Shown here one piece after another: positions 2,485 through 6,776 of a stretch of DNA of 6,963 nt. Source of the stretch: Promethearchaeota archaeon (GTDB lineage: Archaea; Asgardarchaeota; Lokiarchaeia; Sigynarchaeales; SOKP01); the NCBI GenBank assembly GCA_014729315.1, contig WJKD01000827.1, positions 1 to 6,963 on the forward strand. The letters are read 5' to 3'. The translations under genes were made by a program, and so were the position numbers. The notes under the pieces are model-generated. The model saw only the letters and a list, made by a program, of their open reading frames with translations, was not told the DNA's origin and made no database searches. Every line of letters starts with the position of its first letter. Within the stretch, counting starts at the first letter, position 1.

Positions 2485-2799
2485 TTTTACAGTAAAAACC
2501 TGAGATCCGGGGTTCAAAATGAGCCTCCAGTATTGAAAGTTCATGAAACTCCCCGATGGACCATATTTTTTCTTATCATTAAGACTAATGCATGCTTATG
2601 TTCGCCCCTACATTTTATCTGTCCCTTTTATTCATATAAAAATAATCATAATAATCATCAATTCTATTAGATAAAAAAAGTTCCGCTAAAATTTGTCTCA
2701 AATTAACATCAGCCGAGTATTTTAACGGAGAAAATAAAATAAGGAAAAAATACATTCATTCTTCTTTTACGAGGAGCAATTGCGGACTATTATTAAAGA

Positions 2800-2831
2800 T
2801 AAATATAAAAATGATTTGCTTTATATTATAT
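2800..2831 (+). promoter_or_regulatory. TATA-like promoter region for the coiled-coil gene pair
   Basis: AAATATAAAAA (about 2800-2810) and TTTATATTATATTTAA (about 2819-2834) match archaeal TATA boxes. A transcript starting about 25 bases further on (roughly 2830-2855) would give a leader of about 35-60 bases to the ATG at 2891. These boxes fall inside the longer TTG-started version of the gene, which argues for the internal ATG. Confidence 0.4.
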
Positions 2832-2890
2832 TTAATAGTAAAATAGAAAAATGCATAAAGAGAAGAAAATGGTGGTTTAACATAGCGGAA

Positions 2891-3304
2891 ATGCTCACCG
2901 ATTTGCTGAACGCTATTTACAATAGAATTTCTCAATTAGGCAAATCAATTCAGGAATTAAAGGCATCTCTTGATGACTTGAATCAGAACATTGAAGAAAA
3001 GATCACCAATCTAAACGAGAAGATCGCCGAATTTTCGAACGAAATTGGGGTTACGCAAACGAAACACATTGAAGTTTTAAAGAGTATTGGTGAAGGAGTG
3101 AAAGAAGAAATAGAAACGGTTCAGAATGGCCTTGCGTTAGATTCGTTTGAAAACTTAATCTCAAACCTCGAAAAATTCGAAAAATTAGCAAAAGAAATTC
3201 TGAATCAAGATACGGTGAATCTACTCCTTTCAGAAGCTATCGATTCGGTGAAAAATTTGAAAAAATCTTTAAAGGAAGAGGAGGTAGAAGAAGAAAGTGT
3301 CTGA
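2891..3304 (+). CDS. Small coiled-coil protein A
   Basis: This encodes a 137-residue, almost entirely helical, acidic protein with no membrane segment or signal peptide; no named family is recognised. Hydrophobic residues L6, I9, I13, L16, I20, L23, L27, L30, I34 follow a clean 3-4 heptad pattern, which continues with a small register shift (I38, L41, I45, F48, I52). This predicts a long N-terminal coiled coil. A second helical region (80-126) ends in a Glu-rich tail (KEEEVEEESV). The frame extends upstream to a TTG at 2780 preceded by GAGGAG, but that spacing is only 3 bases. The extra 37 residues are basic and aromatic, unlike the rest, and overlap TATA-like sequence, so I prefer ATG 2891, which has only a weak ribosome site. 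The gene overlaps gene B by 8 bases, so the two are probably co-translated. A partner or scaffold role is inference. Confidence 0.75.
   Translation: MLTDLLNAIYNRISQLGKSIQELKASLDDLNQNIEEKITNLNEKIAEFSNEIGVTQTKHIEVLKSIGEGVKEEIETVQNGLALDSFENLISNLEKFEKLAKEILNQDTVNLLLSEAIDSVKNLKKSLKEEEVEEESV
3278..3285 (+). promoter_or_regulatory. Strong Shine-Dalgarno site for coiled-coil gene B
   Basis: GAGGAGGT lies inside the end of gene A, 11 bases before the GTG at 3297. It matches the archaeal 16S rRNA tail almost perfectly and decides the GTG start of gene B over the in-frame ATG at 3327. Confidence 0.75.
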
Positions 3305-3719
3305 TACAGAACAACTGATTAATCAAATGATTGGAAAAATAAACGCTATAACAGAGTCCTTGGATGGAACCATTGCGCAAATTCAGAACATGAATAATTC
3401 GCTCGAACAAATGTCTGCTAAGTTTTCGGAAGAAACTGTAAGTTTAACTGAAAATATTCGACTCATCGTTGAGGTATTGAAACAATTCAGGGTTGCGTCT
3501 GCGAGTAGTTTGAGGGAATTAAACGAAGATCTTTCGGAAAAAATAAAGGAATTATGGGAAAAAAAATCCATCGAGGCAATTCTTAAAGAAGAGAAAAAAG
3601 CGATTGATGCAATAAAAAAAGGTGAAAAAACCGTAGCAAACAACTTATATTACGCTCAATTGCTTACTATAATAAGATCTATTCGAGAAGAAACCAATCG
3701 AATTTTATCGCTTAAGTAG
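3297..3719 (+). CDS. Small coiled-coil protein B, partner of A
   Basis: This encodes 140 residues, nearly all helical, without membrane segment or cysteine; the family is not recognised. The GTG start is chosen for the GAGGAGGT site upstream. The N-terminal half has a regular heptad pattern: I8, M11, I15, I18, L22, (T25), I29, M32, L36, M39, F43. It is predicted to form a coiled coil of the same length class as in protein A. Residues 83-111 are Lys/Glu-rich (KELWEKKSIEAILKEEKKAI). The C-terminal helix (117-140) is amphipathic, with a hydrophobic face YYAQLLTIIRSI that could be a docking surface. The 8-base overlap with gene A and the shared architecture (Asn/Gln-rich heptads) suggest paralogues or obligate partners. 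The family may be a lineage-specific archaeal one. A cytoskeletal, chemosensory-like or trafficking adaptor role is possible but not shown. Confidence 0.8.
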   Translation: MSDTEQLINQMIGKINAITESLDGTIAQIQNMNNSLEQMSAKFSEETVSLTENIRLIVEVLKQFRVASASSLRELNEDLSEKIKELWEKKSIEAILKEEKKAIDAIKKGEKTVANNLYYAQLLTIIRSIREETNRILSLK

Positions 3720-3740
3720 TTTTTTACTAAATTTTTTTTA
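3720..3740 (+). terminator. Oligo-T transcription terminator
   Basis: Directly after the TAG of gene B come two T-runs, six T (3720-3725) and eight T (3732-3739), with no GC hairpin. This is the usual form of an intrinsic archaeal terminator, and it separates the coiled-coil pair from the next gene, which has its own TATA box. Confidence 0.6.
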
Positions 3741-3758
3741 ACTTAGAACTCATTATTA

Positions 3759-3777
3759 TTTAATATAAAATATTTAA
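3759..3777 (+). promoter_or_regulatory. TATA box of the helical-repeat gene
   Basis: TTTAATATAAAATATTTAA is a strong archaeal TATA-like element. A start about 25 bases after its centre would fall near 3791. That leaves AAGGAG (3796-3801) in a leader of about 20 bases before ATG 3811, and places the upstream ATG at 3784 before the transcript. Confidence 0.55.
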
Positions 3778-3795
3778 TGTTAAATGTTTAAAACT

Positions 3796-3801
3796 AAGGA
3801 G
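3796..3801 (+). promoter_or_regulatory. Shine-Dalgarno site deciding ATG 3811
   Basis: AAGGAG lies 9 bases before the ATG at 3811. It sits inside the coding stretch that would result from starting at the in-frame ATG 3784, which has no such site. The shorter protein is therefore the likely one. Confidence 0.7.
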
Positions 3802-3810
3802 CGAATTTTA

Positions 3811-4710
3811 ATGCCAAAAGGGTGCTTTGCTTTATTATTACCCAGTGATTCAGAATACAATGTGCTTGGATACTATATAAAGGACAAAAATTCACAATTT
3901 ACTATCACCGATAATTTATTTCTTCGCTTAAATTTAGATCATTCGAAAAACGATTATAACCTCTTAAAACTCAAAGATTACAACCTTGTCTCCTATCTTT
4001 ATAAATTTAAAGGGAAAATAAAGCGTAAAGCGTTAGGTGTTATTGTTGGTTTAATTTTAAACGAAAATGAGGTTGAAGACGCAGAAAAATTTCGCGTTCC
4101 ATTGAAAAATACAGCATCGAAGATTGAAACGATCAATCCGATTGGAATGGAGAAAGCGGAATTTGAAGTAAAATTGAAAAAATTTTATATTGAATTTTTG
4201 GATAAAATTATGGATCGGTTGGATCCCGAATCCTTGAAGGCGGGAATTATTAATAAAACGAAAGAGATGCTTAGCGGGGGGAGAAAAGAACGAAAAATAG
4301 CTCAAGAATTATTAGAAAAAATTGAAGACAAGGTACATGTGAAGATATCTGAATTATACCAATCGGCAGAAGAGGAGTTAAAAGCCCTCGAGTACGATAA
4401 AGCAGCAAAACATTTTAAAAAAGCTGCGGATATCGCAGAAGAACTAAGAGTAGAAGAATTAGCTAAGAATCTAAAAGATCGTTCCAAATTAGCAAAAGAA
4501 GTACCTGTGCTCACGAAAGAGAGAGAAAAAATGATCGAAGACGCAAGGTTCGCTCTCAAAAACGAAGATTTCAATCAATCTTCTCTTTTATACAAAAAAG
4601 CGAGCGAAATTTCAAAAAAATTGATGGAACCAGATAAACACGAAGAATACGCGCTCAAATCAAAAGCTTTACAAGATTTTTATCAGGCGGATCAGAGATT
4701 CAAAAAATAA
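3811..4710 (+). CDS. Cytosolic protein with possible longin-like N-terminus and two TPR/MIT-like helical hairpins
   Basis: This encodes 299 residues from ATG 3811. Residues 3-85 read as a small alpha/beta domain: strands CFALLLPS and VLGYYIKD, a helix around DNLFLRLNLD, then strands YNLLKLKD, LVSYLYKF and ALGVIVGLIL. That order is compatible with a longin or roadblock-like fold, but no diagnostic motif exists, so this is inference. A helix (86-108) and a charged helical linker (113-180) follow. Two related helical hairpins come next: about 180-213 (YQSAEEELKALEYDKAAKHF, then KKAADIAEEL) and 238-275 (EDARFALKNEDFNQSSLLYK, then KASEISKKL). Both have the A..L....Y..A...Y.KA spacing of TPR or MIT repeats. 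There is no signal peptide or membrane segment. It likely binds other proteins and may work with coiled-coil proteins A and B next door, although it has its own promoter. Specific function unknown. Confidence 0.85.
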   Translation: MPKGCFALLLPSDSEYNVLGYYIKDKNSQFTITDNLFLRLNLDHSKNDYNLLKLKDYNLVSYLYKFKGKIKRKALGVIVGLILNENEVEDAEKFRVPLKNTASKIETINPIGMEKAEFEVKLKKFYIEFLDKIMDRLDPESLKAGIINKTKEMLSGGRKERKIAQELLEKIEDKVHVKISELYQSAEEELKALEYDKAAKHFKKAADIAEELRVEELAKNLKDRSKLAKEVPVLTKEREKMIEDARFALKNEDFNQSSLLYKKASEISKKLMEPDKHEEYALKSKALQDFYQADQRFKK

Positions 4711-4752: not shown

Positions 4753-4784
4753 ATAGAAGAATTAACTTTTTGGATAGTGATTTT

Positions 4785-5621
4785 ATGACCGAGGCTTATC
4801 AAGATCATATCGGACTTTTAACAGATTTTGGTTTAAAAGGTCAACATTATGTTGCTAGTATGAAGGGAGTTATCTTACAACTAAATCCAAACGCAACTAT
4901 CGTTGACATTTCCCATAATGTTTCCTCTTATTCGATTCTTGAAGCTGCTTATTTAATGAACAGTACTTATAAATACTTCCCTGAATGCACTGTTTTCGTA
5001 ATAGTAGTAGATCCAGGAGTCGGTAGTTCTCGGGAGATAATAGCTTTAAAAACCATCAAAAATTATTATTTTGTAGGACCGAATAATGGACTGTTCCCTC
5101 ACATAATTTCTAAAGATAAAATTTCGGATTGCGTTAAAGTTGAAAACGATAATTATTTTAATAAGCCCGTTTCACGAACTTTTCACGGAAGAGACATTAT
5201 GGGTCCTGTAGGAGCACATATTACGTTAGGTGTGCCTCTCACTAATTTTGGGAATTCTTTTGATATTAATAATTTGGTATCTCTCCCTATTGATTTGAGA
5301 ATAAACGAAGAAAAAAAGAAAATACTTTGCACCGTTCAATATATTGATAATTTCGGGAACGTGACTACAAATGTACGTCTTATTGGAAATTCCGTTGAAG
5401 GATACGATTTGGAACTTCCATTAGATTGTATGCTAAAATTTAAAATTAACAATAGGCAAATAAGTGCTAAATTCGTTACCCACTTCTCAGGCGTTCAGAG
5501 AAATAAATATTTATTTCTGAGAGGGTCAAGTAATTTTCTTGAGCTTTCAAAAAATCAGGCCAATGCAGCTAAAGATTTAGATCTGAAAGTGGGTGATACC
5601 ATCGAAATTAATTTGGCTTAG
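4785..5621 (+). CDS. S-adenosyl-L-methionine hydrolase (adenosine-forming), DUF62 family
   Basis: The 278-residue protein matches the DUF62/SAM hydroxide adenosyltransferase family (fluorinase/chlorinase superfamily), which uses water to split SAM into adenosine and L-methionine in the cytosol. Visible motifs are LLTDFG (11-16), VDISHNV (40-46), VDPGVGSSR (75-83), FVGPNNGLF (96-104), FHGRD (133-137), DNFGNVTTN (188-196), and a C-terminal RGSSNFLELS with NQANAA. The family's Asp/Arg/His triad (D68, R75, H127 in Pyrococcus PH0463, from memory) aligns with D76, R83 and H134 at nearly the same spacing, which favours the hydrolase over halogenase members. Length is normal for the family. An in-frame TTG at 4770 would add five residues; ATG 4785 is preferred because homology begins at DHIGLLTDFG. 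The next gene starts three bases after the stop, so the two form an operon. Confidence 0.95.
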   Translation: MTEAYQDHIGLLTDFGLKGQHYVASMKGVILQLNPNATIVDISHNVSSYSILEAAYLMNSTYKYFPECTVFVIVVDPGVGSSREIIALKTIKNYYFVGPNNGLFPHIISKDKISDCVKVENDNYFNKPVSRTFHGRDIMGPVGAHITLGVPLTNFGNSFDINNLVSLPIDLRINEEKKKILCTVQYIDNFGNVTTNVRLIGNSVEGYDLELPLDCMLKFKINNRQISAKFVTHFSGVQRNKYLFLRGSSNFLELSKNQANAAKDLDLKVGDTIEINLA

Positions 5622-5624
5622 AGA

Positions 5625-6776
5625 ATGAATATGGCAGAAGAAATTTTAGCGTGTATTAAGGAAGAAGACATAAAATATTTAGAATCCGGGCAAATTTCCA
5701 AATATATTTTTCCCAAGGAACGATCTAAGGCTCATAAAGAAAATATTCCCCATTTAATTACACGTCTATTCGCCTTGCAAATTAATTCTGACAATGAGGT
5801 TTTTTACCTCATTCAAAAGAGGAGCGAGGAGAGAAAGAGCTTCCCGGGATTTTATACTGATTCCGCAAGTGGACACGTGGTATTTGAAAAAGGGTTAGAA
5901 TTTGACGATATTAAGAGAAATGCTTTACGAGAGTTGGAAGAAGAATTTGGGATCTCTCCAAATAAAGCAGAAAAAGTTAAATTTTATCGACTTGAGAAAG
6001 AAAAGGATAATTTAACTAAAGAAATTGCGTATATCTTTTTAGTATTATTAGAAAACGACCTTAAACTTAATCCAGATCCCGAGGAAGTTGAAGTATCAAA
6101 GAGTAAGTTCTATAGAAAGGAACAATTGATAAAACTTTTGGATAAAAAAGACGCTGTTGATTATTCAAAAAAAATATGGAGCGAAATTCTTGACCTAGAC
6201 CTCTTCGAATACTTTAATTTAGACCAAGGTTCTCAAAAAAATAAAGAAGAAAAGAAAAACATTGCTCTATTTATCGGCCGTTTTAATCCCTTGCATCATG
6301 GACATATTTACGTTATGAAAAATATTTTGGATGATTTTCAGGTTTTAAAAATTGGTATTGGTAGTGCCCAATTGGATCATACGAAAAACGACCCCTTCAC
6401 TGGAGACGAAAGAAAAAAATTTATCGAGGCTGCCTTGAAAAAACGAGGTTATTCCTCAAAAAGATACGAAATCCATAAAATACCCGATATTTTTAACGCA
6501 GATAAATGGGTAAACCATGTTGTATCTATCGTTGGTGATTTTGATGTTGTCTTTTCAAATAGCGATTGGGTAAGAAAATTATTTGAAAACGCCGACTATG
6601 AAGTGGGAAGAAAAATTGTAATTTTTAAGAAAAAATTTAGCGGGTCCCGCATTCGGGAATTGATTCGGAACGACAAGAAAGAATGGAGGAATTTGGTTCC
6701 CAACGAGGTGATTGACCTAATGAAAGAATACGACGGAATCGAACGTATTAATACTTTAGCATCCAATTCTAATTAA
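5625..6776 (+). CDS. nadM: Fused IDI-like Nudix domain and archaeal nicotinamide-nucleotide adenylyltransferase (NadM)
   Basis: This 383-residue protein has two domains. Residues 30-195 are a Nudix fold resembling type 1 isopentenyl-diphosphate isomerase: H37 and H43 (AHKENIPH), FPGFYTDSASGHV (73-85), RELEEEFGI (102-110) and E133 fit metal ligands of that family. The isomerase catalytic Cys is replaced by S82 and a second Glu by T131, so isomerase activity is unlikely and nucleotide or other diphosphate hydrolysis more probable. The Nudix box carries five extra residues (VFEKG region). A charged linker (201-211) leads to residues 212-376, archaeal NadM: GRFNPLHHGH (218-227, ATP-binding), GIGSAQ (244-249), HTKNDPFTGDER, NADKWVNHV and FSGSRIREL (338-346). 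NadM joins NMN and ATP to give NAD and pyrophosphate, the last step of NAD synthesis and salvage. An alternative start is ATG 5631. No clear ribosome site; translation is probably coupled to the SAM hydrolase. Confidence 0.93.
   Translation: MNMAEEILACIKEEDIKYLESGQISKYIFPKERSKAHKENIPHLITRLFALQINSDNEVFYLIQKRSEERKSFPGFYTDSASGHVVFEKGLEFDDIKRNALRELEEEFGISPNKAEKVKFYRLEKEKDNLTKEIAYIFLVLLENDLKLNPDPEEVEVSKSKFYRKEQLIKLLDKKDAVDYSKKIWSEILDLDLFEYFNLDQGSQKNKEEKKNIALFIGRFNPLHHGHIYVMKNILDDFQVLKIGIGSAQLDHTKNDPFTGDERKKFIEAALKKRGYSSKRYEIHKIPDIFNADKWVNHVVSIVGDFDVVFSNSDWVRKLFENADYEVGRKIVIFKKKFSGSRIRELIRNDKKEWRNLVPNEVIDLMKEYDGIERINTLASNSN

Follow-up and report, generated by a model that had tools for sequence, protein, structure and literature searches.

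The window, a stretch of 6,963 nucleotides from a Promethearchaeota archaeon (contig WJKD01000827.1), carries one gene that, judging from its sequence, probably encodes an NMN adenylyltransferase (NadM) joined to a Nudix pyrophosphohydrolase of the IDI/YfcD kind, in a fusion that arose apart from the one in bacteria. Positions 5625-6776 of the forward strand are confirmed as a real open reading frame of 383 residues, with the Nudix half first and the archaeal-type NadM second. The bacterial NadM/Nudix proteins have NadM at the N terminus and Nudix at the C terminus, so the reversed order reported in the initial annotation stands (Nudix 53-174, NadM 214-381). The gene and its parts are listed below.

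5625..6776, + strand: Nudix-NadM fusion gene, 383 residues, start possibly 5631
5625..6239, + strand: IDI/YfcD-like Nudix, N-terminal half, about residues 1-195 plus the start of the linker (Pfam NUDIX 53-174; model alignments)
5868..5879, + strand: S82-G83-H84-V85, with S82 at the site of the presumed catalytic Cys of most type 1 IDI (alignments)
5928..5954, + strand: REUxEExGU half of the Nudix box, R102-I110, RELEEEFGI (R102, E103, L104, E106, E107 and G109 invariant among aligned relatives)
6228..6251, + strand: linker of low confidence, residues 202-209 (model pLDDT <50)
6261..6773, + strand: predicted archaeal-type NMN adenylyltransferase (NadM), C-terminal half, GRFNPLHHGH motif

In the alignment the relatives begin at the third residue of the window protein, so the second ATG, at 5631, may be the true start. 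Pfam NUDIX matches residues 53-174 (1.6e-7; 31.8 bits against a gathering cut-off of 21.1), and CTP_transf_like matches residues 215-345 (3.2e-12). The NCBIfam archaeal NadM model NF002243 was passed over residues 214-381 (160.4 bits, cut-off 127), and the TIGR01527 equivalog cut-off of 181.2 bits was not reached (140.9 bits). Residue conservation was counted in an alignment of the 168 fused proteins among the matches listed (P0001-P0120, P0159-P0206); the counts did not take in P0207-P0214 or P0121-P0158, the latter retrieved with the Nudix half and often partial. The HxGH sequence, which we take to be the nucleotidyltransferase motif, is kept almost throughout these 168 proteins (H224 in 167, H227 in 168). 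Family score, motif and fold support the prediction that the C-terminal half is an NMN adenylyltransferase, which would join NMN and ATP to NAD. The archaeal NadM proteins of Methanothermobacter (NMNAT, 1ej2) and M. jannaschii (1f9a) are single-domain, whereas the window protein adds an N-terminal Nudix half. Where public sources give the protein a name, it is mostly nicotinamide-nucleotide adenylyltransferase, which hides the first 200 residues.

A protein search with the window protein yielded 508 matches, of which 120 were listed including the query; the 119 others cover at least 97% of the query at 53-59% identity. The listed matches with an organism name are nearly all Asgard MAGs, and one labelled as a bacterium (P0116, a Nanopelagicaceae MAG) is taken for a mislabelled MAG. 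Scanning species genomes yielded 64 loci, made up of 59 in Lokiarchaeota/Lokiarchaeia MAGs, one labelled Bathyarchaeota (L058), which grouped within the same phylum set as the Lokiarchaeia, and four Nudix genes without NadM. The Nudix half searched by itself retrieved 38 proteins, the named ones coming from Asgard archaea or marine sediment metagenomes. When the divergent fused member L058 served as query, 58 proteins were found; in 50 of these (P0159-P0206, P0047, P0104) NadM follows an N-terminal half. The other eight (P0207-P0214) are not Nudix-NadM proteins; four of them (P0207, P0208, P0212, P0214) have NadM first and Nudix last, the domain order having been checked in three. P0207 and P0208 are fusions of about 300 residues in the usual order with an ordinary Nudix domain, and P0209-P0211 and P0213 carry other domains by precomputed Pfam labels (PF04019 in three, PF01513/PF20143 in one). 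Candidates in the protein searches were proteins sharing exact words with the query, and distant cases may be missed.

Among 227 genomes of the same phylum (Asgard), 211 matched somewhere, 86 matched the Nudix half, and 71 hold the fusion in one open frame (combined from two match lists). The 86 comprise 71 with a one-frame fusion, five of them with a decayed Nudix half (G090, G091, G093-G095); three with a fusion cut by contig ends (G109, G114, G129); nine with a standalone Nudix relative in frames of 191-242 residues together with a standalone NadM (G076-G083, G161); and three with other, weaker Nudix matches only (G043, G047, G166). One genome outside the 86 (G089) contains the fused frame L073, whose decayed Nudix half was missed by the Nudix-half match. 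Because the one-frame fusion recurs in 71 of 227 genomes and in 168 proteins among the matches listed, an artefact of a single bad assembly is ruled out. Candidatus Lokiarchaeum ossiferum, which is in culture, also carries the fusion (P0196, P0199).

Sequence and the fold of the predicted model support placing the Nudix half nearest to the IDI/YfcD-type Nudix proteins and not to the ADP-ribose pyrophosphatases. Its best sequence match is human IDI2, its closest solved structures are isomerases, and IDI and YfcD stand at the top of the Foldseek lists, kinship with families lower in these lists or missing from them being a lesser possibility; in the predicted model, residues 4-193 align to YfcD and residues 6-195 to E. 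coli IDI. The initial annotation had pointed to H37, H43, SGHV (82-85) and E133, and all of these are present in the window protein. Across 38 aligned relatives H37, H43, S82, G83, H84 and E133 do not vary, whereas V85 is kept at 90% or more. The window protein thus has all four of H37, H43, H84 and E133, which we take to be the metal-site residues of type 1 IPP isomerase. The view of the initial annotation that the domain is unlike ADP-ribose pyrophosphatases was likewise borne out by family models, sequence and fold, none of which gave its best alignment with them.

The second half of the Nudix box, REUxEExGU, is satisfied by RELEEEFGI (R102-I110). The complete box GX5EX7REUXEEXGU is not formed in the window protein, in which 19 residues instead of 14 separate G83 from R102 (5 extra), and among the aligned relatives there is no invariant Glu at the place of the first Glu of the box. 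E. coli YfcD and Deinococcus DR_0079 are single-domain, and their box is shorter than that of the window protein by about 5 residues; a longer loop is common to the window protein and human IDI1 (motif as given in PMC5389931). Among the matches listed, 162 of the 168 fused proteins retain the REUxEExGU glutamates, and 162 have the full set of S82, H84, E103/E106/E107 and E133. Both H37 and H43 are kept in 150 of these 162 active-site-intact proteins, again among the matches listed; the pair is incomplete in the other 12 (eight Asp/His, three Asn/Phe, one Val/Phe), and both Candidatus Lokiarchaeum ossiferum entries are among the three Asn/Phe variants. The dN/dS ratio of the Nudix half was below 1 (0.06-0.63) in all 47 pairs compared (43 Loki, three decayed, one L098/L099), with dS saturated in several.

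We propose that the protein combines two enzyme activities and belongs to Asgard archaea, chiefly those of the Lokiarchaeia type. Its N-terminal domain, which falls structurally with IDI, YfcD and DR_0079, would be a Nudix pyrophosphohydrolase. The REUxEExGU helix would hold the metal, and the compound cleaved would be of the nucleotide diphosphate type. The likeliest substrates may be either a nucleotide that arises in NAD turnover or its clean-up, such as ADP-ribose or another NDP-X, or, following the example of DR_0079, cytidine nucleotides.

A special case of the hydrolase reading is that the Nudix half works as an ADP-ribose pyrophosphatase, as in the bacterial NadM-Nudix proteins, while belonging to another Nudix lineage. 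One source states that NadM and PncC are both known fused to ADP-ribose pyrophosphatases and gives the recycling of ADP-ribose to AMP and ribose-5-phosphate as the proposed link (PMC3680494). The domain falls outside the sequence and fold group of those enzymes, which bears on its descent and not on its substrate, and we regard this special case as unlikely.

The bacterial proteins (PRK05379; 2qjo, 2qjt, 2r5w) resemble the window protein in combining NMN adenylyltransferase and Nudix in one chain of similar length. They differ from it in that the window NadM is of archaeal type and the window Nudix appears IDI/YfcD-like rather than like an ADP-ribose pyrophosphatase, and the matches in sequence and fold run through the NadM part only. 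The PRK05379-type equivalog cut-off of 354 bits or more was not reached, the best score being 63.5 bits from the NadM part only. Close kinship with the bacterial NadM-Nudix proteins is ruled out by domain order and Nudix type. An independent fusion, as the initial annotation had suggested, is likely, because usual-order fusions exist elsewhere and the one such protein compared, P0208, aligns to the window protein via NadM only.

The isomerase-like relationship raises the question of whether the Nudix half could itself be a type 1 IPP isomerase, in which case the protein would link NAD and isoprenoid synthesis. Besides the likeness in fold and metal-site His/Glu residues to human IDI1/IDI2 and E. 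coli IDI, and the isomerases among its closest solved structures, the type 1 models are the best model matches of the Nudix half. The scores, however, lie far under the cut-offs for the window protein (TIGR02150, 30.7 against 105.8; NF002995, 38.2 against 127), and the highest IDI-1 score of any fused protein was 47.8 bits where 105.8 are needed. The Cys before the G/S-H-P motif, at the position aligned to S82 and presumably catalytic in type 1 IPP isomerase, is missing from the window protein. Position 82 is Ser in 164, Thr in two, Asn in one, Ala in one and Cys in none of the 168 fused proteins among the matches listed. The missing Cys is not decisive by itself, since in the printed alignment human IDI2 also has Ser there, as the window protein does. 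Position 103, part of the hydrolase-type REUxEExGU, is Glu in 165 of the 168 fused proteins among the matches listed, whereas two true Asgard IDI-1 proteins have Arg. The histidines H37 and H43 are not specific to isomerases, because the Nudix protein L100, under the IDI-1 cut-off, has both; their incomplete state in the 12 otherwise intact proteins among the matches listed also speaks against an isomerase.

The genomes hold other candidates for that activity. Five of the 227 genomes (G080-G083, G161) have an IDI-1 over the cut-off, in no case a fused protein, and the standalone Nudix relative is present in all five; no IDI-2 was found over the cut-off in them (best E 2.6e-7, or no match). The IDI-1 genes read in G083 and G161 have the motifs SNTCCSHP and SNACCSHP, pass both models and score 168.6 and 168.2 bits against 127, whereas the Nudix relative of G083 scores 41.3 bits. 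An ORF read as isopentenyl phosphate kinase adjoins both genes. A strong IDI-2 match (E 1.3e-96 or better) occurs in 55 of the 71 fused genomes; the 16 in which it is missing weaken the argument from other isomerases, unless their assemblies are incomplete, which is a possible cause. For the genome of the window itself, the isomerase content is taken from its relatives. Taken together, family scores, residues and the other isomerases in most genomes make the isomerase reading very improbable. What stood of the initial description is the closeness to IDI; the Nudix half is IDI-like in sequence and fold and yet probably no isomerase, and it would not be the IPP isomerase of the cell.

In genome G002 a single 630-residue ORF (L110, 1969-3861, - strand) matches both NF040647 (224 bits) and TIGR02151 (353 bits) and reads as an isopentenyl phosphate kinase fused to a type 2 IPP isomerase. 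Several other genomes with fused NadM likewise have IDI-2 in open frames of 630-640 residues.

Some members have kept the fusion and lost the Nudix active site. This applies to six of the 168 fused proteins among the matches listed (P0201-P0206), and the same loss was found in loci L072-L074 and L076-L078 of six genomes (G089-G091, G093-G095). Because these members remain fused without an active site, Nudix catalysis is dispensable in one branch of the fused proteins. No Pfam NUDIX match at E 0.01 was obtained for L072 and L076, nor for some other members, among them P0196 of L. ossiferum, though its ExxEE is intact. In L076-L078 the decayed half has a dN/dS of 0.37-0.43 against 0.18-0.23 for the NadM half of the same proteins; it evolves faster than the NadM half but is still constrained. 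All six decayed loci still have Cys10.

These observations bring up the alternative that the Nudix half is a non-catalytic domain, ligand-sensing or structural, that controls or stabilises NadM, comparable to the NrtR Nudix domain that binds ADP-ribose. The retention of the N-terminal half after loss of the active site, the constraint on the decayed half of L076-L078 and the conserved Cys10 all favour it, and the Foldseek list includes, at rank 48, an NrtR Nudix structure solved together with ADP-ribose (3gz8). On the other hand, ExxEE, S82, H84 and E133 persist in the 162 of 168 fused proteins among the matches listed, suggesting catalysis in most members. Since the REUxEExGU motif and the constraint have to be weighed against the non-canonical box, the loss of the active site and the missed Pfam NUDIX matches, we hold the pyrophosphohydrolase to be the probable function and a sensor or structural role to be rather unlikely.

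An N-terminal ACF...FHTG motif is kept in the decayed L072, L073, L074 and L076-L078, and it is also present in members with an intact Nudix half, such as P0196.

The origin of the fusion was addressed with a midpoint-rooted NadM tree of 48 rows, in which the Loki rows were thinned to a part and L059, whose fused gene is cut by a contig end, was counted as fused. The 16 standalone rows form one set (support 97/92), and 31 of the 32 fused rows lie on the other side of a split of 91/84, which was not starred. The remaining fused row, L070, has a very long branch and groups with the standalone rows. The tree suggests a single origin of the Nudix-NadM fusion.

As far as sequences can tell, this is a second joining of NadM and Nudix, in the other order, with another Nudix lineage, and widely distributed within one part of the Asgard phylum. 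The arrangement is thus common within that part, and no description of it was found in the open-licence PubMed Central literature, so that calling it undescribed is provisional. The same literature yielded no paper on Lokiarchaeota NAD biosynthesis and adenylyltransferase, and little work seems to exist on how Asgard archaea supply their NAD. The second joining adds weight to the view that NAD synthesis benefits from a Nudix reaction of some kind. Only tentatively, we picture a NAD enzyme peculiar to Asgard archaea, whose IDI-related Nudix domain would have turned into a NAD-pathway hydrolase or a sensor acting on NadM, the stages being visible in living lineages: two genes, an intact fusion, loss of the histidines, and decay of the Nudix half, perhaps to a regulatory role. 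The copy in Candidatus Lokiarchaeum ossiferum makes substrate and regulation testable.

Upstream of the fusion gene, four neighbours are conserved. They were counted in 69 distinct loci with both halves detected, after three duplicates had been dropped and with L072 and L073, whose decayed halves escaped detection, left uncounted.

4770..5621, + strand: SAM hydroxide adenosyltransferase / DUF62, directly upstream (PF01887 4.4e-51, PF20257 8.3e-18; 66 of 69 fused loci)
3784..4710, + strand: helical, weakly TPR-like protein of 308 residues (no Pfam family over cut-off; 57 of 69 fused loci)
3297..3719, + strand: coiled-coil-like protein of 140 residues (54 of 69 fused loci)
2780..3304, + strand: coiled-coil-like protein of 174 residues, start uncertain (53 of 69 fused loci)

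All four are present in 50 of the 69 loci, some of which are cut by contig ends. In 65 loci DUF62 is upstream in the same orientation, no more than 300 bases separating the matched ends, and in L023 it is 1.4 kb upstream; it is missing in L059 and L098, both at contig ends, and in L075. Outside this count, the DUF62 gene of L072 is 5.2 kb distant and on the other strand, and at L073 none was found. Hydrolysis of SAM, preferentially of the (R,S) epimer, is reported for one DUF62 protein in a paper that doubts whether this is its physiological role (PMC12120602). That the operon serves clean-up is no more than a lead. Among the 16 standalone-NadM loci fetched, seven (L080-L082, L084, L104-L106) have DUF62 upstream in the opposite orientation, at a distance of 81-775 bases, and in the other nine it was not seen; the NadM-DUF62 neighbourhood therefore occurs with and without the fusion.

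At the other end of the window, positions 1-2190 of the - strand hold an open-ended ORF of 730 residues, with no Pfam family over the cut-off and a partial match in L003 alone among the loci compared. In most Loki loci, the three helical or coiled-coil-like proteins encoded at 2780-4710 precede DUF62 and the Nudix-NadM gene.
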